From Candidatus Manganitrophus noduliformans (GTDB lineage Bacteria > Nitrospirota > Nitrospiria > SBBL01 > Manganitrophaceae), in contig NZ_VTOW01000003.1 in assembly GCF_012184425.1 (NCBI RefSeq), forward strand, positions 186,001-250,000: DNA of 64,000 bases, written 5' to 3'. A program made the translations under genes and the position numbers. The notes under the pieces are model-generated. The model did not search any database, was not told the DNA's origin, and saw only the letters and a program-made list of their open reading frames with translations. This document shows, piece by piece, positions 17,890 to 27,791 of the stretch. Position 1 is the stretch's first letter. Every line of letters starts with the position of its first letter.

Positions 17890-18990
17890 TTATTGGACCT
17901 GCAGGTTTTTCGGCGGCTGGGGGCAGTCTTGGCAGAGGGGAAAACCGACCGGATTAGCTGTTCCGTCTGCGTTGACAATGTAGAGATATGTGTCATTCAA
18001 GCTGCCGAAAGATCCTTTGTTTAAGGTGACCTGGACCGACGTATCGGCCCAAGATGTCGGAACTTGAATCTCTCGATGGGTGACGGCGGTCCAGATCGGC
18101 GCGTTTCCGATCTCAACCCTGGCTTGCGTTGTGTCGAAATAAAGGTCGTCAATATAAACGAGAGCTCGGGCGTCAGTGGGATTGTCCTTGGCGAAGTAGG
18201 ACCCAAAATGCCACTGACGCCAAGTTTTAGTTGTTGTTCGGGTGATATATGCATCGCCATTTAAGTCGAGCAGAATAGAAGGGACAGGGGAAGAGGGCCG
18301 GTGTACCCACATTTTATACTTTCCATCCGGCACGTTCGGCGTGCTTTGAACAAGATAGACTTCAAATCGTACCCATTCGTTTTCAATGTCCTCGATGCGT
18401 GTGCTTCCCCAAAGGGTCGGTATATTGATCGTCGGATTATCCTGGACACTGCTTCGTAATTTACTATCGGCAGTGCCGCCCATTCCAAGACCGGCATAGG
18501 TCATTGGGAGCAAACCATCACTACCATATTCGAGCCAGGGCTTTATATTTCTCGACCAACTTGTGCTTTGTTTTTGCATTTTCCACCAGAAGGTGAAATA
18601 AACCGAGCTATGTTGGCCGGAATACTCAAGCGAGATATTGCTTCCTCCATTTAGGAAGTCGTGGAAACTTGACACCGTCGAGTTCGGTCGGACTCCCACA
18701 TTGGAGTATTTAGGTCCGATGGTGCCGTTGAAATAGTCGTCCCATGCCGGCCCTATAACAGGGAGGTTCCCCTTGATAGCACCGCCTTGGATTCCCTTTT
18801 CAAAATCGTCCCAAATTATTGGGGGACCCGCCGTTTTGCTGCCGAAACCGAGACCACTGATAGTAACAGCGGTGCCGTGGCTGAGGGAGCCAGAAACACC
18901 CGTAATGACCGGTTGTGCCAAGGCGGAGAGGTGAAATGGCACTGTAGAGGCGATGAAAAAAAGAATGCTGACGATTTTCTTTAATGACAT
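17890..18990 (-). CDS. Secreted protein with N-terminal IPT/TIG-like segment, unknown function
   Basis: 366 residues. Start chosen at 18990 because GGAGGATAACC precedes it directly. A signal peptide (MSLKKIVSILFFIAS...LSALA) leads into QPVITGVSGSLSHGTAVTISG, an IPT/TIG-like opening. A ~250-residue beta-rich, Trp-rich region follows (YFTFWWKMQKQSTSW, WRQWHFGSYF, VYIDDLYFDTT), reminiscent of carbohydrate-binding or polysaccharide-lyase-like jelly rolls. The C-terminus ends QPPKNLQVQ, which looks like the entrance to a fibronectin-III module, so the protein may be truncated. An upstream c-di-GMP riboswitch points to a biofilm or adhesion role; that is inference. Confidence 0.75.
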   Translation of the reverse strand: MSLKKIVSILFFIASTVPFHLSALAQPVITGVSGSLSHGTAVTISGLGFGSKTAGPPIIWDDFEKGIQGGAIKGNLPVIGPAWDDYFNGTIGPKYSNVGVRPNSTVSSFHDFLNGGSNISLEYSGQHSSVYFTFWWKMQKQSTSWSRNIKPWLEYGSDGLLPMTYAGLGMGGTADSKLRSSVQDNPTINIPTLWGSTRIEDIENEWVRFEVYLVQSTPNVPDGKYKMWVHRPSSPVPSILLDLNGDAYITRTTTKTWRQWHFGSYFAKDNPTDARALVYIDDLYFDTTQARVEIGNAPIWTAVTHREIQVPTSWADTSVQVTLNKGSFGSLNDTYLYIVNADGTANPVGFPLCQDCPQPPKNLQVQ

Positions 18991-19186: not shown

Positions 19187-19219
19187 AAAAAAAGCCGCCA
19201 AGGGAATCCTTTGGCGGCT
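19187..19219 (-). terminator. Intrinsic terminator / expression platform of riboswitch 2
   Basis: On the - strand, AGCCGCCAAAGG and CCTTGGCGGCT form a strong GC-rich hairpin followed by a run of seven T. Its 5' arm (GCCGCC) overlaps the last bases of the preceding aptamer, so folding of aptamer and terminator should be mutually exclusive or coupled. It sits ~200 bases ahead of the 18990 start. Confidence 0.8.
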
Positions 19220-19290
19220 CGGCGGGCATGGCCTTTCAGCTTTAGCCCCGTTACTCTGCGTCCCCACCTTTCGATGGGTTTGCTCTGAGC
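19213..19290 (-). ncRNA. Cyclic-di-GMP-I (GEMM) riboswitch, copy 2
   Basis: The - strand shows the GEMM-I layout: GAGCAAACC, a hairpin closed by a GAAA tetraloop (CCATCGAAAGGTGG), then GGACGCAGAG where the consensus is GGACGCAAAG, then a second arm with CGGGGCTAAAG...GGCCATGCCCG. The base before CAAAC is G (G20 in Vc2 numbering), as in c-di-GMP rather than cGAMP binders. The intercalating A47 position reads G here. Followed by an intrinsic terminator and the 18990 secreted-protein gene. Recognised by consensus, not by a covariance search. Confidence 0.78.
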
Positions 19291-19596
19291 AAAGGTCGAA
19301 ATGTAACTTGAGTTACGCCATCGGCGTGAGATTCTTCAGCGCAACCCACTCTGACGCTTCGACTTATGTGGTGTTAATAACGATATAAAATACTATATTC
19401 CTTTTTTCCCGTCAACTATAATCACCCTCCATTTAATCTATACCGTTTCGACTTAATCAATATCTTCCTGTCGTTCAACATTCTCGATCGATCCTCGGCA
19501 AGATATAAGAAAAGCGGATCGAGATCAATCGGAAGGTCAACGTAGCGGTCCTTCGTAAGTGATCCATACTTAATGAGTCGATCGCCGGCGCCGCGT

Positions 19597-21837
19597 TCAT
19601 TTCTTGATTCCCTTCCGAAGCGCCGCAAGCGAGAGGACCAGAATCAGCCCGATCATGTCGGCCGAATGGCCCGGTCCCGACGCGGTTCCAGAGCTCGGCG
19701 AAATCATCGCGCAGCCGCCCCCGCCCCCCGAGCCGCCGTCGTTTGCATTCGAGCCGCCGGTCGAAAAACCGAAGGGGGTTGCAGAAGCATGCGCGGTCTG
19801 TTGATAGTTCCCGTTGTTATCGTATGATGAGGCCGAATAGTAGTAGGTCACGTTATCCTGTAGCCCTGCATGGATGACGGTGATGCTTTCATTGATTCGC
19901 CCGGAAAAGTTTCCGAGGATCTCACCGTCTTCAATGCCGTTCGGGAATCGATCGGTCCGGTAGACGATGCGGACCCCGACGAAGTCGGAATCGGACGGAT
20001 TGACCCAGCTTAATGTGACCGTTTGAGTCCCCGGAACGGCGGTGAAGTGTTCGACGTCCGCCGGAGGGACCGTATCGCCGAGGGGGTTCGTGGTGAAGCT
20101 GTGGTCGGCCGACACGGAGAGATTGCCCAAGGCGTCGGCGCTTTTGACCCGATAATGGTAGACCGTGTTCGGTTGGAGCCCGGAGAGGGTCCGGCTGTGG
20201 CTGTTCGACAGGGTGGCGTTGACCCCGCTGCTGTTCCCGTATCCGACGGTAAGACCATACTCCACCTCACTCGTCGCCGGCTCATCCGTTCCCCAGGTGA
20301 TCGTCACACCCTCCGTGGTCATGTCCCGCGCATCGATCGCCGACAGAACCGGTCCGGTCGTATCGGAAGAAGATTGGGCGGCTGTTGTAAACGAATTGTT
20401 CCCGGAGGTGGCGGTATTCCCGGCGGCGTCCCGGCTGATGACCCGGTAGTTGTAGGTGGTGGCCGGCTGAAGATTCGTCAATGAAGCGCTGTGGGCGGCC
20501 AGAAGGGTCGTATTCAATGTGCTGAGAGAGCCGTACGCCGTGGTCGGCCCGTATTCCACTTGGGCGGTGGCCGCTTCATTGGTGCTCCAGGAAATGACAA
20601 CCGAGGTGGAAGCAACGTTCCCCGCGGCGATACCGGAGAGAACCGGCGCCGTTGTATCGGGGGTGGCGGAGGTGGTGAAGGTTCTATTTCCGGAGACCGA
20701 GATGTTTCCGGCCCCATCTTGGCTGATGACCCGGTAGTTGTAGGTGGTGGCGGGGCTCAGGCCGGAGAGGGTCCGGCTGTGACTGGTGACCGGCGTGGCG
20801 CCCAATGCGGAGGAAGAGCCGTACGATGTCGTCGTTCCGTATTCGACTTGGGAGGTCGCCGTTTCATTGGTGCTCCAGGTGATTACTGCGGAGGTCGATG
20901 CGATGTTGCTGGCGGCAATATTGGAAAGGGTCGGCGCGGTGGTGTCGGGGGGCGCGGCGGTGGTGAACGTTCGATCTCCCGAGGTGGCCAGATTTCCGGC
21001 GCCGTCCCGGCTGCGGACGCGATAATGATAAAGCGTGGCGGGGAGAAGCCCGGTCACCTGTTGGCTATGATTTGTAGTGAGCGTGGTATTGAGCGTCGTG
21101 GAGCTTCCGTACGAAGTGGTTGTCCCATATTGAATCTGGGTGTCGGAACTCTCATTGGTCGTCCAGCTGATCGTGGCCGCGGTGGTGGTGATATTCGAGG
21201 CGCCGATTCCGGAAATCGCCGGCGCGGTGGTGTCGGGCGCGGCGGAGGTGGTGAAGGTGCGGTCCCCGGAGGTGCCGGTGTTCCCGGCGGCGTCTCTGCT
21301 GATGACCCGATAATGGTAAGTCGTTGAAGGGTTCAAGCCGCTTAACACGCGGCTATGGCCGGTGACGAGGGTCGAATTGAGCGCGGAGGAGGAACCGTAT
21401 GAGGTCGTGACGCCGTACTCCACCTGGGAGGTGGCCGCTTCGTTGGTGCTCCAGCTGATGGTTGCTCCGGCGCTGGTGATGCTGCCGGCCGCAATGGCGG
21501 AGAGGGTCGGCGCGGTGGTGTCGCCGAAGCTCTTGCTGACTTCATTGGAGTAGCCGCTTTCCGCCCCCGAGGTGTTGTATGCGCTGACGGCAAAATAATA
21601 GGTCTGACTGCTGCTTAAACCGTTTACAGTGAAAGACGTTTGATTGCCGACGTCCACGGGGGCGCCGTAGCTGCCGGAGGAGGTTCCATAGTAAACTTTA
21701 TATCCCCCGAGATCGTTTTCCGTGTTGGCGTCCCAGGAGAGGAAGGCGTCCGCAGCCATCGCGGGGGTTTTCCAATTCAGGAGAAGGATCATACCGATGA
21801 TCATCAGAGCGCTTCGCTTGATCAATGAGGTCTGCAT
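19597..21837 (-). CDS. Secreted multi-fibronectin-III protein with Gly-rich/Cys C-terminal anchor
   Basis: 746 residues; GGAGGAACAGC precedes ATG 21837. Signal peptide (MQTSLIKRSALMIIGMILLL...AMA), one Fn3 module (~30-105), five near-identical ~93-residue Fn3 modules beginning DTTAP or DTTGP (~107-575) and a divergent seventh module. Each repeat carries ISW(S/T)TNE, QVEYG.TT.YGS and YHYRV-S-D-GN. The C-terminus is a Gly-Ser run, GGGGGCAM, a hydrophobic helix (DMIGLILVLSLAAL) and RKGIKK. This is a tripartite sorting signal resembling Cys-containing JDVT/GlyGly-type CTERM tails, with no PEP motif. Likely a surface adhesin or matrix protein under c-di-GMP control. Confidence 0.87.
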   Translation of the reverse strand: MQTSLIKRSALMIIGMILLLNWKTPAMAADAFLSWDANTENDLGGYKVYYGTSSGSYGAPVDVGNQTSFTVNGLSSSQTYYFAVSAYNTSGAESGYSNEVSKSFGDTTAPTLSAIAAGSITSAGATISWSTNEAATSQVEYGVTTSYGSSSALNSTLVTGHSRVLSGLNPSTTYHYRVISRDAAGNTGTSGDRTFTTSAAPDTTAPAISGIGASNITTTAATISWTTNESSDTQIQYGTTTSYGSSTTLNTTLTTNHSQQVTGLLPATLYHYRVRSRDGAGNLATSGDRTFTTAAPPDTTAPTLSNIAASNIASTSAVITWSTNETATSQVEYGTTTSYGSSSALGATPVTSHSRTLSGLSPATTYNYRVISQDGAGNISVSGNRTFTTSATPDTTAPVLSGIAAGNVASTSVVISWSTNEAATAQVEYGPTTAYGSLSTLNTTLLAAHSASLTNLQPATTYNYRVISRDAAGNTATSGNNSFTTAAQSSSDTTGPVLSAIDARDMTTEGVTITWGTDEPATSEVEYGLTVGYGNSSGVNATLSNSHSRTLSGLQPNTVYHYRVKSADALGNLSVSADHSFTTNPLGDTVPPADVEHFTAVPGTQTVTLSWVNPSDSDFVGVRIVYRTDRFPNGIEDGEILGNFSGRINESITVIHAGLQDNVTYYYSASSYDNNGNYQQTAHASATPFGFSTGGSNANDGGSGGGGGCAMISPSSGTASGPGHSADMIGLILVLSLAALRKGIKK

Positions 21838-21879
21838 GCTGTTCCTCCATGCATCAATAAAAAGTGTTTGGTCTGTGTA

Positions 21880-21910
21880 ATAAAAAAGCCCATTCCTCGG
21901 AATGGGCTTG
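21880..21910 (-). terminator. Intrinsic terminator after riboswitch 1
   Basis: On the - strand AAGCCCATTCC-GA-GGAATGGGCTT forms an 11-bp perfect hairpin followed by TTTTT, located between the c-di-GMP aptamer and the Fn3-protein start. It is the likely expression platform. Confidence 0.85.
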
Positions 21911-21937
21911 TGCCTAAAGATGCGCCGGCATCGTCAT

Positions 21938-22025
21938 GGCAACCAGACGAACCGTGGGAAGTGGATCCCCTACTCATCGGTCTCTTGGCTTTGCGTCCTA
22001 CCCTCTCGGATAGTTTGCCCTTTTT
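21938..22025 (-). ncRNA. Cyclic-di-GMP-I (GEMM) riboswitch, copy 1
   Basis: The - strand reads GGGCAAAC, a hairpin with a GAGA (GNRA) loop (CTATCCGAGAGGGTAG), the invariant GGACGCAAAGCC, a second longer arm, and the closing GGTTGCC that pairs with the 5' GGCAAAC region. G precedes CAAAC (c-di-GMP type) and A47 is intact. It is followed by an intrinsic terminator and the multi-Fn3 gene at 21837. Placement implies transcription control of a surface protein by c-di-GMP. Whether the ligand turns the gene on or off cannot be decided without folding. Confidence 0.88.
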
Positions 22026-22101
22026 CACGAGTTGCTGTCGTATGTTGCGTATCGGTATACGCAAGCGACATGCCTGTGAAACACGAATGGAGAAAAGAAT
22101 G

Positions 22102-22196
22102 GATTCTATCCAACGATTATGGAAGGAGTTTTCAAAGGCCGTCTCTTGAGGCTAGATTCTATCCAATGATTATGGAAGGAGTTCTCAAGGGGCGTA
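22102..22196 (+). repeat. Two-copy tandem direct repeat (53-bp unit) upstream of prsK
   Basis: GATTCTATCCAACGATTATG GAAGGAGTT... at 22102 recurs as GATTCTATCCAATGATTATG GAAGGAGTT... at 22155. It lies in the 520-base divergent region between the Fn3 gene and prsK. Could be a duplicated operator or a mere tandem duplication. The rest of 21838-22356 holds riboswitch 1, its terminator and a C10 run near 22280; no gene seen. Confidence 0.7.
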
Positions 22197-22356: not shown

Positions 22357-24483
22357 ATGACATTTCCTTCCTTTATCCCATTCTTGAATGCCCTTCTTTG
22401 CGCAGGATTGGCGCTGTTCATCTTCCTTGAAGACAAGCGGTCCTTTGTCCACCGGGTATTTTCTTTCGGGATGATCGCCCTGGCCCTTAAAGAGCTTTTC
22501 GTCGGAATGGCGATGGGAACCCCCCTTCCCTCGGAAAGGGTCGATTGGGGGGCCTGGGGGCTGACAGCGGCCAGTATGCTTCCCGGAAGCTGGTTTTTGT
22601 TCAGCCTCAGTTTCGGTCGTTCGAATTACAAGGAGCTGGTGGCGAAATGGAAGTGGTTTATCCTCCTGTCGCTGACCCTCCCTTTTTCGATGACACTCTT
22701 CTTTAGGGAGTCTCTCTTGGTGTCCGCTTTTCCGGAAGAAGGGGGATCTCCCGTTCTCCGTCTTGGATGGTCCGGTTATACCTTTTACCTTTTCTATCTT
22801 TTGGCTTCCGTGGTGATACTGATGAATCTGGAGGGAACCCTCCGGGCTTCCACGGGGAATAAGCGGTGGCAAGTCAAATTTATGCTCCTCGGGATCGGGG
22901 GGCTGTTTGCCGTTCAAATTTATACCGCCAGTCATACCCTTCTCTTTTCATTGATTAATTCGGGGATGGAATCGATCAATTCTTTTGCGATTCTGGTGGC
23001 GAATATCCTGATTGTCCTCTCCCTCCTGCGTAATCGCTTCCTCAATGTCGATATTTATTTCTCACGCACATTGCTTTACAACTCGATTACGATCGTGGTC
23101 GTCGGGGCCTATCTTCTGACGGTCGGTATCCTTGCGAAGGCGATCGCTTATTTTGGGGGCAACCAGGCCATTCCCCTCGGCACTTTTTTCGTTTTTGTTT
23201 CGCTCCTGGGCCTTACGGCGATCCTTCTTTCCGATCAGTTGCGCCAGGAGCTAAAGCGTTTTATCAGCCGGAACTTTTATCAGCCGCGTTACGACTATCG
23301 CAAGGAGTGGACGGCATTTACCCAACAGACCACTTCATTGATGAACGTCAACGATCTCTGCTCCGCAGTATCAAAAATGGTTTCAGAGACGTTTGGAGCC
23401 CCTTCTGTAACGATTTGGCTGGTTGATGAGAGTCCCAATGCCATTTATTTCGGCGGATCGACCGTATTTTCCGATATTCAAATCCTGGATGTGAAGAACA
23501 AGAGTAAAATATGGGATGAGCTCCTTTCATTTATGAATCGTCATCCGGCGCCGCTCGATGTGGACTCGCCCAAAAACGAAAAGATAAGAGAAATGAAGGA
23601 AGCTCACGCCGATTATTTTGAAAAGACCAGAATAAGTTTTTGCGTCCCGCTCATTTCCAGCCGGAGCCTGCTGGGGGTGATGACGTTGAGCCGCCGTCTA
23701 ACCAAGGAGCCGTTCTCGTTGGAGGACGCCGATTTGTTGAAAACCATCGCGGATCAAGCGGCGGGGAGTCTCCTCAACGTGAAGCTGACGGAGCGTCTTT
23801 TGAAGGCGAAAGAGATGGAGGCGTTCCAGAGCCTCTCCGCCTTTTTCATCCATGACTTGAAAAATTTGGCATCGATGCTTTCTCTCACGATGCGGAATCT
23901 GCCGGCCCATTTTGATAATCCCGAATTTAGGAGTGATGCGCTGCGGGTGATCTCCCAGAGCGTCTCCAAAATGAACGACATGTGCAGCCGCCTCTCCCTT
24001 TTGACGAAAAAAATGGAGCTGCAGTGTGTTGAAGTCGATCTGAATGAATTGGTCGCCTCCACCCTGGGAGGAATGAATGGATCGGTCAAATCGACGGTGG
24101 AGAAAAACCTTCAGACGTTGCCGAAGTGCATGATCGATCCCGACCAGGTCCAGAAGGTCATCGTGAATCTTATCCTCAATGCAAACGAAGCGGTCGACCA
24201 AAGGGGGGTCATCCGGATCGAGACCGACCGGACGGAAGAGTGCGTCGTTTTCTCCGTCAGCGACAACGGTTGCGGCATCTCGAAACAATTTATCGAGCGC
24301 TCTCTTTTCCAGCCGTTTCAAACCACAAAGAGTCAGGGGCTTGGGATCGGTCTGTTTCATACGAAGAAAATTGTGGAAGCGCATCACGGTAAAATCGAAG
24401 TCGAAAGCGAGGAGGGGGTCGGGACCACTTTTCGGGTGATCCTGCCGATCCATAGCGTCAATGGCACAGAACACAAAGTATAA
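22357..24483 (+). CDS. prsK: PEP-CTERM system histidine kinase PrsK
   Basis: 708 residues. About eight or nine membrane helices fill residues 1-295, followed by a GAF-like sensor (~310-465). A histidine-kinase core follows: phospho-acceptor H499 in FFIHDLKNLASML, N-box NLILNANEAVDQ (~605), G1 SDNGCGIS (~636) and G2 GLGIGLFHTKK (~661). The HDLKN H-box and multi-helix N-terminus match PrsK of exosortase systems. It overlaps prsR by 23 bases, the expected gene pair. Likely senses an envelope or matrix cue and phosphorylates PrsR to activate sigma-54 promoters of PEP-CTERM genes. Confidence 0.92.
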   Translation: MTFPSFIPFLNALLCAGLALFIFLEDKRSFVHRVFSFGMIALALKELFVGMAMGTPLPSERVDWGAWGLTAASMLPGSWFLFSLSFGRSNYKELVAKWKWFILLSLTLPFSMTLFFRESLLVSAFPEEGGSPVLRLGWSGYTFYLFYLLASVVILMNLEGTLRASTGNKRWQVKFMLLGIGGLFAVQIYTASHTLLFSLINSGMESINSFAILVANILIVLSLLRNRFLNVDIYFSRTLLYNSITIVVVGAYLLTVGILAKAIAYFGGNQAIPLGTFFVFVSLLGLTAILLSDQLRQELKRFISRNFYQPRYDYRKEWTAFTQQTTSLMNVNDLCSAVSKMVSETFGAPSVTIWLVDESPNAIYFGGSTVFSDIQILDVKNKSKIWDELLSFMNRHPAPLDVDSPKNEKIREMKEAHADYFEKTRISFCVPLISSRSLLGVMTLSRRLTKEPFSLEDADLLKTIADQAAGSLLNVKLTERLLKAKEMEAFQSLSAFFIHDLKNLASMLSLTMRNLPAHFDNPEFRSDALRVISQSVSKMNDMCSRLSLLTKKMELQCVEVDLNELVASTLGGMNGSVKSTVEKNLQTLPKCMIDPDQVQKVIVNLILNANEAVDQRGVIRIETDRTEECVVFSVSDNGCGISKQFIERSLFQPFQTTKSQGLGIGLFHTKKIVEAHHGKIEVESEEGVGTTFRVILPIHSVNGTEHKV

Positions 24484-25825
24484 AATTCTCATCGTCGATG
24501 ATGATGAGACGATCCGCCAACAGATGAAATGGGCCCTGGCCGACGAGTACGAGATCTTCTTGGCCGAAAACCGAAGGGGCGCGATCGATCTTTTCCGGCG
24601 GGAGCTCCCTCCGGTGGCGACCCTCGACCTCGGCCTGGCGCCTCATCCCCGGGAAGCGACGGAGGGGCTGCTGGCCCTCTCCGAAATGCTGGAGATCGAC
24701 CCGCGGGTCAAAATTATCATTGTCAGCGGCAACTCCGACCGGGCGAATGCCCTCAAGGCGATCGAGCAAGGGGCCTATGATTTCTTCACCAAGCCGATCG
24801 ATCTCGACGAGATCCGGGTGACCCTCCGGCGGGCGATTCACCTCTTTCAGTTGGAGGAGGAGAATCGTCAATTAAAGAAACGCCCGACACAAGAGGGAGG
24901 GATGATCGGCGCCAGCCGGGTGATGGAAGGGCTCTACGCGACGATCCGCAAAGTTTCAACGACCGATATCCCTGTTCTGATTACCGGCGAGAGCGGCACC
25001 GGGAAAGAGCTGGTCGCCCAATCGATCCATCAGCATAGCGCCCGGAAGGCCGGTCCTTTTATCGCGATCAATTGCGGCGCCATTCCGGAGAACCTCTTGG
25101 AAAGCGAGCTCTTCGGTCATGAGAAGGGGGCGTTCACGGGGGCGCACGCGCAGCGGAAAGGCCGGATCGAATATGCGGCGGGGGGGACCCTTTTTCTGGA
25201 CGAAATCGGAGAGCTTGGATTGGGCCTTCAGGTGAAGCTGCTCCGTTTTCTTCAAGAGAAGACGATTGAGCGGGTTGGCGGAAGGGAGAGTCTTCATATC
25301 GACGCGAGGGTGATTGCCGCCACGAATCGCGATCTGAAGGAGAGGATGGCGAGCGGGGTTTTCCGAGAAGACCTTTTTTATCGGTTGGGGGTTGTTTCTA
25401 TTTCAGTTCCCCCGTTACGTGAGCGAAACGGGGATCTTCTCGTTTTAACCCGCGTCTTCATCGCCCGTTTTTCGGAAGAAACGGGGAAGAAGGTCAAGGG
25501 GTTAACCCCTGCGGCCGTTGAGGCGCTCACGGCCCATTCCTGGCCCGGCAATGTCCGTGAGTTGGAAAACAAGGTCAGAAGGGGGGTCGTGATGACCGAC
25601 GGGGTTCATTTGACCCCGGAAGACCTGGAATTGGCCGTACCGGGCGAGCCGGTTCCCCTGCCAAGATTAAAAGCTGCGAGAGAGAAGCTGGAACGTGAGC
25701 TGGTGGAGCTGGCGCTGGCGCGGTTCGGCGGAAACGTCACCCAGGCGGCATCCGCCCTCGGTATCTCACGGCAGGCGCTGCACGATATCCTGACGAAGCG
25801 CCAGATCGAGCGTTCCTCGAATTAG
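24461..25825 (+). CDS. prsR: PEP-CTERM-box sigma-54 response regulator PrsR
   Basis: 454 residues: receiver (7-120) with acidic pocket VDDDE, phospho-acceptor D56 and K111; AAA+ sigma-54 activator domain with Walker A GESGTGKE (~175), GAFTGA loop (~223, contacts sigma-54), and GGGTLFLDEIGEL Walker B; C-terminal Fis-type helix-turn-helix (ASALGISRQALHDIL, ~428-445). Overlaps prsK. A repeated GACRGAAAASTTGACA motif and GG-N10-GC promoters before the downstream PEP-CTERM genes are its probable targets. The 3' end has a decayed duplicate at 27127-27546. Confidence 0.93.
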   Translation: MAQNTKYKILIVDDDETIRQQMKWALADEYEIFLAENRRGAIDLFRRELPPVATLDLGLAPHPREATEGLLALSEMLEIDPRVKIIIVSGNSDRANALKAIEQGAYDFFTKPIDLDEIRVTLRRAIHLFQLEEENRQLKKRPTQEGGMIGASRVMEGLYATIRKVSTTDIPVLITGESGTGKELVAQSIHQHSARKAGPFIAINCGAIPENLLESELFGHEKGAFTGAHAQRKGRIEYAAGGTLFLDEIGELGLGLQVKLLRFLQEKTIERVGGRESLHIDARVIAATNRDLKERMASGVFREDLFYRLGVVSISVPPLRERNGDLLVLTRVFIARFSEETGKKVKGLTPAAVEALTAHSWPGNVRELENKVRRGVVMTDGVHLTPEDLELAVPGEPVPLPRLKAAREKLERELVELALARFGGNVTQAASALGISRQALHDILTKRQIERSSN

Positions 25826-26093: not shown

Positions 26094-26109
26094 TGGTATG
26101 TCCTTTGCT
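26094..26109 (+). promoter_or_regulatory. Sigma-54-type promoter for the first PEP-CTERM gene
   Basis: TGGTATGTCCTTTGCT keeps GG and GC exactly ten bases apart, as in -24/-12 promoters, and differs from the second site (27776) only at one base. It lies ~90 bases before ATG 26199, leaving a plausible leader. Confidence 0.75.
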
Positions 26110-27126: not shown

Positions 27127-27546
27127 CAAGAGGGCCGCTGCTCGGAGGCGGGGCGACCTTCTTCTATCCTGGCTATCGTCGGGAATCGGTTCCCCCGTTA
27201 CATGAGCGAAACGGGGATAAGGTCAAGGGGTTAACCCCTGCGGCCGTTGAGGCGCTCACGGCCCCATTCCTGGCCCGGAACGTCCGTGAGTTGGAAAACA
27301 AGGTCAGAAGGGGGGTCGTGATGACCGACGGGGTTCATTTGACCCCGGAAGACCTGGAATTGGCCGTACCGGGCGAGCCGGTTCCCCTGCCAAGATTAAA
27401 AGCTGCGAGAGAGAAGCTGGAACGTGAGCTGGTGGAGCTGGCGCTGGCGCGGTTCGCGGAAACGTCACCCAGGCGGCATCCGCCCTCGATATCTTACGGC
27501 AAGCCCTCCACGATATCCTTTCCAAACACAAAATCGATCGAACGTA
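27127..27546 (+). pseudogene. Decayed duplicate of the 3' third of prsR
   Basis: From ~27190 the DNA is almost identical to prsR 25410-25800 (KVKGLTPAAVEALTA, NVRELENKVRRGVVMTDG and so on). Differences: a 54-base in-frame deletion between two GAAACGGGGA repeats (present at 25425 and 25478 in prsR, once here at 27208), a +1/-1 pair around ARNVREL, and loss of one G near 27456 that breaks the helix-turn-helix frame. The last ~30 bases diverge and, in the restored frame, encode a different ending (LSKHKIDRT). Upstream of 27190 a weaker prsR-like stretch is recognisable. Not a functional regulator as it stands. Confidence 0.85.
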
Positions 27547-27553
27547 ACGCCGG

Positions 27554-27775: not shown

Positions 27776-27791
27776 TGGCATGTCCTTTGCT
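27776..27791 (+). promoter_or_regulatory. Sigma-54 promoter for the paired PEP-CTERM genes
   Basis: TGGCATGTCCTTTGCT matches the -24/-12 consensus with GG-N10-GC. It lies inside the 5' part of the longest open frame (from 27765), which argues that translation starts later, at 27846. Confidence 0.82.

Follow-up and report, generated by a model that had tools for sequence, protein, structure and literature searches.

The stretch of DNA considered here, further referred to as the window, comprises 64 kb of the genome of Candidatus (Ca.) Manganitrophus noduliformans (RefSeq contig NZ_VTOW01000003.1, positions 186,001–250,000 of the forward strand). It contains two genes of secreted proteins, each preceded by a riboswitch, next to the regulatory genes prsK and prsR (Table 1). 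The window was scanned with cmscan against Rfam. Only two matches at the gathering level were found, both to the cyclic di-GMP (c-di-GMP-I, GEMM-I) riboswitch family RF01051 (gathering score 35), both on the reverse strand and both covering the complete model (positions 1–87 of 87); the E-values were 9.6e-10 for 19294–19210 and 1.6e-8 for 22029–21935. The pair of GEMM-I riboswitches is real and well beyond chance. A preliminary description of this DNA, made from the letters alone, had proposed two such aptamers with GNRA hairpins and CAAAC and GGACGCARAG-type cores, an intrinsic terminator after each aptamer and a secreted gene after each terminator, and had suggested an RF01051 search of the reverse strand. 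That search places both segments well above the gathering score, GNRA loops and CAAAC and GRCGCARAG cores are present in both, each aptamer is followed by terminator arms with a U run, and the downstream genes encode a multi-Fn3 protein and a TIG/IPT-domain protein.

Table 1. Features of the locus in window coordinates; ligand types are predictions.
Feature	Position	Strand	Evidence
GEMM-I aptamer of the Fn3 gene, G20 (22019), A48, predicted c-di-GMP type	21935–22029	−	RF01051, 57.1 bits
Conserved, predicted anti-P1 hairpin UGCC..GAUGC/GCAUC..GGCA, which would sequester the ligand-pairing CC	21911–21941	−	Six aligned genus-level G20 leaders; minimum free energy (MFE) folds
Intrinsic terminator of the Fn3 leader	21882–21909	−	Arms 21909–21899/21896–21886 and U run
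Gene of the multi-Fn3 secreted protein, 746 aa, seven fn3 stretches, C-terminal GGGGGC, transmembrane segment and basic tail	19597–21837	−	
GEMM-I aptamer of the TIG/IPT gene, A20 (19284), G48, predicted cGAMP type	19210–19294	−	RF01051, 62.1 bits
Terminator of the TIG/IPT leader; 5' arm GAGCCGCCAAAGG holds C92/C93 and the P1 3' strand	19187–19220	−	Sequence overlap; covariation in relatives
Gene of the secreted TIG/IPT-domain protein; reading frame also open from GTG 19008	17890–18981	−	PF01833, 23.8 bits
Sigma54-type −24/−12 element AGGCATGTCGCTTGC 5' of the Fn3 leader	22061–22075	−	Kept in GAC4 and G209
Two copies of TCCATAATCNTTGGATAGAATC, possible activator (PrsR) sites	22123–22102, 22176–22155 (span 22102–22176)	−	0 expected in shuffles
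prsK, sensor kinase, oriented divergently to the Fn3 gene	22357–24483	+	TIGR02916, 452 bits
prsR, sigma54-dependent response regulator	24461–25825	+	TIGR02915, 602 bits
Sigma54-type element TGGTATGTCCTTTGCT 5' of a PEP-CTERM gene	26094–26109	+	Motif match
Sigma54-type element TGGCATGTCCTTTGCT 5' of the second PEP-CTERM gene	27776–27791	+	Motif match

The source genome (5.17 Mb, 22 contigs) contains ten RF01051 matches, including two tandem pairs. The same locus is found in Ca. Manganitrophus sp. GAC4 (Nitrospirota, Nitrospiria, Troglogloeales), with the Fn3-gene aptamer and the other aptamer beside prsK at the identical spacing of 2.7 kb. Ten copies in one genome might suggest decayed or non-regulatory aptamers left over from duplication. 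We find this hardly credible given the complete cores and terminators, the retention of the locus in GAC4 and in the related genome G209, and the covariation described below.

The numbering of the Vc2 riboswitch was fixed from PMC3764141, with G20 in J1/2, the C22-G45 pair, A47–A49 in J2/3, G14-C93 heading P1, and C92 pairing with the ligand guanine. Under this structure-based numbering position 20 is two bases 5' of CAAAC, and the contacts A14, A41, A42 and C75 of the 3',3'-cyclic GMP-AMP (cGAMP) riboswitch 4YAZ correspond to Vc2 positions 20, 47, 48 and 92. An A at position 20 is the mark of 3',3'-cGAMP switches, and a G is as in c-di-GMP switches; the replacement G20A turns Vc2 into a cGAMP binder (PMC7288161). 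The Fn3-gene aptamer has the full c-di-GMP-I contact set G20/A47/C92 as well as A48 and is predicted to be of the c-di-GMP type. The TIG/IPT-gene aptamer departs from this set at position 20 and has the GEMM-Ib contacts A20, A47 and C92 (19214). At the equivalent of A42 in 4YAZ it carries G48 instead of A48, in common with the whole A20/G48 subclass introduced below. Since G48 is not known as a defining feature, we filed this aptamer as GEMM-Ib-like. The earlier remark that the pair is not a simple recent duplication is borne out. Because of the G20/A20 difference, at the base reading the second purine of the ligand, and of the predicted cGAMP synthases in the genome, the TIG/IPT aptamer is more probably a cGAMP (GEMM-Ib) switch than a c-di-GMP switch. 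The proposed dependence of surface-protein output on c-di-GMP finds support for the Fn3 aptamer (G20) but not for the TIG/IPT aptamer (A20, predicted cGAMP type). On balance we favor the interpretation that the two GEMM-I riboswitches of the locus act on transcription independently of each other, and that each is tuned to its own one of two related messengers, c-di-GMP and 3',3'-cGAMP.

The A20 plus G48 pattern was found in at least 118 stretches of genome contigs, some of them chance matches betrayed by wrong spacing. Genuine A20/G48 aptamers occur in Nitrospirota, Gemmatimonadetes, Acidobacteria, Deltaproteobacteria (Desulfobacterota), a Zixibacteria and an Eisenbacteria record, and others. 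In a sample of 296 Nitrospirota genomes there were 96 G20/A48 and 25 A20/A48 aptamers with GNRA-capped P2, and no G20/G48 ones; the A20/G48 type had 60 matches, with the stem in all 24 of them that were tested. Therefore G48 appears only with A20 in these genomes. Judged by its sequence, the TIG/IPT aptamer belongs to a coherent cross-phylum A20/G48 subclass.

In the TIG/IPT leader P1 is formed by CCTTTG (19295–19290) and CAAAGG (19213–19208), and its 3' strand lies inside the terminator 5' arm GAGCCGCCAAAGG (19220–19208), which is followed by the 3' arm (19203–19192) and the U run. P1 of at least 4 bp is present in 97 of the 104 subclass members. In 97 sequences that are in register, the paired positions vary together: pair 12-95 is T-A in 47, C-G in 38 and A-T in two, and pair 11-96 is T-A in 64, G-C in 22 and C-G in six. 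The changes between T-A, C-G, G-C and A-T are mirrored in the terminator 3' arm, so that three strands covary. P1 and the terminator are thus mutually exclusive via the common strand, by overlap in the leader and by covariation in the subclass. Since the P1 3' strand is at the same time the terminator 5' arm, with covariation of all three strands, this leader should be a transcriptional ON switch. The MFE of the leader is −47.7 kcal/mol with the terminator and −29.9 kcal/mol with P1 forced, the ligand being ignored. As the terminated fold is about 18 kcal/mol better without ligand, the choice between the folds must be made during transcription, like that of pilM (PMC9262584). We propose that the A20/G48 aptamer would read 3',3'-cGAMP made by the Hypr GGDEF enzymes of this genome; with ligand, P1 would be held and its 3' strand kept out of the terminator, allowing transcription to continue, and without ligand the terminator would win.

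Three further observations concern this switch and its genes. In the A20/G48 subclass the J1/2 CUC (19289–19287 here) is complementary to G48-A49-G50 (19256–19254), and the two are base-paired in the fold predicted without ligand. The three genomes compared have different genes behind the A20 aptamer, namely that of the TIG protein in the source genome and those of secreted proteins of 344 aa in GAC4 and of 478 aa in G209; hence the switch is kept and the payload changes. Three otherwise unlike secreted proteins behind A20 switches (window 17890–18981 and the corresponding slots in loci L289 and L290) end in PPxNLxVQ, as if the payload were swapped and the switch and the tail kept.

Genes that could supply cGAMP were looked for among the 48 GGDEF loci of the source genome. 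Two of them, L030 (GHLMGSQVL...ARYGGDEF, a GAF-GGDEF protein) and L058 (GHLTGSHIL...ARYGGDEF), keep the GGDEF motif intact but have Ser-348 where the base-reading Asp would be, that is, the Hypr signature, and from this signature the host is predicted to make cGAMP. Geobacter sulfurreducens likewise carries two Hypr GGDEF proteins (PMC8835794). A strict Hypr DNA pattern with 23-residue spacing, which detects one of the two Hypr genes of the source genome, is present in 31 of the 51 genomes with A20/G48 aptamers, many of which are metagenome-assembled. In the Nitrospirota sample it is found in 22 of 30 A20/G48 carriers vs 88 of 266 other genomes (Fisher p = 3e-5, relatedness ignored); outside the family f17 all 22 of 22 carriers have it. 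Genomes with G20 aptamers only are near the background (26 of 55, p = 0.09). The association supports the cGAMP reading without proving it. A different view is that A20/G48 aptamers bind cyclic dinucleotides promiscuously or recognise one other than cGAMP, and thus report the total cyclic-dinucleotide pool rather than cGAMP. It may be put forward because G48 is at one of the positions that touch the ligand (A42 in 4YAZ), the cited literature was not found to describe any A20/G48 RNA, and Hypr enzymes make c-di-AMP and c-di-GMP too (PMC7288161). The TIG/IPT aptamer retains A47 and C92, the partner of the ligand guanine, and the retained C92 speaks for a ligand with one G or more; we consider this view improbable.

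The following points weigh against the two-ligand interpretation. A20 is a selectivity factor and no absolute filter (PMC9262584); in a Desulfobacca aptamer studied by in-line probing, a natural change at the ligand-reading position, giving an A20-type RNA, raised the affinity for c-AMP-GMP, with c-di-GMP still bound (PMC9481103). G48 occupies a ligand-contacting position and may bear on the predicted ligand preference. Eight A20/G48 genomes, all from the family f17, have no match to the strict Hypr pattern, and the f17 member examined has a longer spacing and Ser-348 solely with GGEEF, a combination reported inactive. A20/A48 aptamers occur also in families without the Hypr pattern. At the level of families the association of A20/G48 with Hypr is weak (13 of 14 families vs 17 of 27), because Hypr genes are common in Nitrospirota. 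Finally, the terminator of the Fn3 leader is separate from P1, and for that switch ON is a prediction by analogy. The strict rule that A20 implies a Hypr gene was rejected, given the f17 genomes. The f17 proteins L244 and L248 (genome G055), with Ser-348, GGEEF and longer spacing, are observed in a genome carrying A20/G48 riboswitches; the combination of Ser-348 with GGEEF has been reported as not naturally occurring (PMC6456294).

Both switches might instead sense c-di-GMP, A20 being tolerated and G48 with a rebuilt J1/2 restoring c-di-GMP recognition. This would agree with the match of both aptamers to RF01051, with the ability of A20-type RNAs to bind c-di-GMP still (PMC9262584, PMC9481103), with the A20/G48 aptamers of f17 lacking a canonical Hypr gene, and with the dozens of canonical GGDEF genes in the source genome. 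Yet the base at position 20 is the one established for selectivity, G48 is never seen without A20 (60 vs 0), A20/G48 carriers outside f17 all have the Hypr pattern, and the co-existence of both types, in relatives even in series on one gene, is hard to explain with one ligand. A common c-di-GMP ligand appears to us rather unlikely, and we retain two ligands as the preferred interpretation.

For the Fn3 gene we propose that a sigma54 promoter, probably activated by PrsK-PrsR, would yield the leader, in which the G20 aptamer would read c-di-GMP and feed the downstream intrinsic terminator. This terminator does not overlap P1. According to the folds, the hairpin between them (21941–21911) would sequester C92-C93 and compete with P1. 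No convincing antiterminator was found in the MFE folds of the Fn3 leader and the alignment of six genus-level G20 leaders; a pairing of the aptamer 5' GGGC with the terminator GCCC was not adopted, as it is not conserved in the genome G183. Going by related switches (predicted in PMC9481103), ON is the more likely direction. The encoded protein ends in GGGGGC, a transmembrane segment and RKGIKK (window 19597–19730, reverse strand), and a similar tripartite tail (GGGGC...) is seen on the Fn3 protein controlled by L002; it is possibly a sorting signal, and had no match in the libraries searched. The products of the Fn3 and TIG/IPT genes may have an adhesive or matrix role.

The −24 GG and −12 GC of sigma54 promoters are present upstream of the Fn3 leader in a conserved element. 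With at most one mismatch, the other matches to AGGCATGTCGCTTGC in the window are both upstream of the two PEP-CTERM genes (26094 and 27776). Genome-wide, the motif has 13 matches in three genomes vs none with reversed-pattern controls, all 21–277 nt upstream of starts of open reading frames of varied function; we take it therefore to be the sigma54 promoter of this lineage. The motif GGYATGTCNYTTGC was rejected as PrsR-specific: it also precedes unrelated genes and hence marks sigma54 promoters in general. PrsK and PrsR, claimed by the preliminary description together with an exopolysaccharide locus, are identified by equivalog models; from the latter locus WecB was confirmed, an XrtA-type amidotransferase matches below its cut-off, and nothing further was confirmed. 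PrsR would be the obvious local activator of the Fn3 promoter. Both copies of the 22-bp direct repeat TCCATAATCNTTGGATAGAATC are present in GAC4 and one degenerate copy in G209, and they are candidate activator (PrsR) sites. Haft motif 1, the PrsR enhancer ending in TTTACA, was not recognised by eye upstream of the sigma54 elements. The Fn3 gene would then depend on PrsK-PrsR at the promoter and, in the leader, on clearing a checkpoint set by c-di-GMP. An apparent broken second copy of the prsR 3' end, with the same residues as the C-terminal helix-turn-helix region of PrsR and a disrupted frame, lies between the PEP-CTERM genes (27220–27550, forward strand).

Relatives combine the two aptamer types in one leader. 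In the Fn3 leader of G209 a G20 aptamer is followed by an A20 aptamer about 160 nt away. The same order is found at contig C16 of G209, C517 of Manganitrophaceae GW715, in GAC4 (3347788/3347666) and at C48 of G183. Each mixed tandem precedes an Fn3 secreted protein, with a spacing of about 120–260 nt, in Ca. Manganitrophaceae and one other Nitrospiria. None of the 15 hetero arrangements in the published tandem-riboswitch survey joins c-di-GMP to c-AMP-GMP, and the 347 c-di-GMP-I doublets are treated there as single-ligand (PMC9481103). If both switches are ON switches, the mixed tandems would be AND gates, and the window would be a split version of the same two inputs. Our tentative proposal, for which we see slightly less than an even chance, is that Ca. 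Manganitrophaceae and another Nitrospiria use a serial two-messenger gate, c-di-GMP (G20) and then cGAMP (A20/G48), on Fn3 surface proteins. In the window it would be split between neighbouring genes; it would be a heterotypic tandem hidden among c-di-GMP-I doublets and read by the cross-phylum A20/G48 cGAMP subclass.

Other GEMM-like RNAs of the source genome were also seen. Locus L013 (contig C2, 484000–502000) has two A20/A20 tandem pairs that precede the genes of two very large secreted Fn3 proteins, one of 1156 and one of 1279 aa, an arrangement that recurs in GAC4. L014 (C2, 810798–810886, forward strand) is a divergent RF01051 match (45.3 bits) with the core AGCUACCC, and the gene after it encodes a very large secreted protein with repeats. 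L015 (C1, 1857009–1856913, reverse strand) is a weak A20-like match (36.7 bits) with AGCACCCC in place of GCAAAC; it is directly 5' of a PilZ-domain gene (PF07238), possibly a cyclic-dinucleotide receptor under a GEMM-like RNA.

The Fn3 aptamer resembles known c-di-GMP-I riboswitches (RF01051, GEMM-Ia; Vc2, Cd1) in G20, A47, A48, C92, the GNRA P2 loop, the three-way junction and the downstream terminator; it differs in its place behind a sigma54-type promoter beside prsKR and in the conserved anti-P1 hairpin between aptamer and terminator. The TIG/IPT aptamer shares A20, A47 and C92 with cGAMP riboswitches (GEMM-Ib; Geobacter pilM, Gs1761; PDB 4YAZ), and its leader shares the pilM-type ON architecture with the P1 3' strand in the terminator (PMC9262584). 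Unlike GEMM-Ib, it has G48 instead of A48, and G21-C46 as in c-di-GMP switches, and A20/G48 switches occur outside Desulfuromonadales, controlling TIG and Fn3 secreted proteins. The putative cGAMP synthases L030 and L058 are like the Hypr GGDEF enzymes GacA and GSU1937 in having Ser at the base-reading position and GGDEF; a difference is the N-terminal GAF domain, shown for L030. As in the tandem riboswitch logic gates of PMC9481103, single leaders of the relatives hold two complete switches that have a terminator each, whereas the G20-then-A20 pair is outside the hetero-tandem table of that survey and would be counted there as a c-di-GMP-I doublet. The PrsK/PrsR-sigma54 control of PEP-CTERM genes (PMC1569441, PMC9850573) has the same regulators and −24/−12 elements ahead of PEP-CTERM genes; here, in contrast, the element is also found ahead of a leader with a riboswitch, that of an Fn3 gene outside the PEP-CTERM set. 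Switches of this kind are already known. As far as the cited literature shows, three things are new: the A20/G48 variant, including where it occurs and its ON architecture; the probable division of two ligands between the switches of this locus; and the placing of two messenger inputs in series in relatives.

The RNAs described here form a short, synthesizable set for the direct study of the coupling between bases 20 and 48 and of two-messenger logic. If the interpretation is true, Rfam annotations of c-di-GMP-I riboswitches mix two ligands and should be read with this in mind. Riboswitch-mediated cGAMP signalling would then extend far past Geobacter and its kin, to manganese-oxidising Nitrospirota and soil Gemmatimonadota, and cells would weigh two sister messengers at neighbouring, or even single, surface-layer genes.

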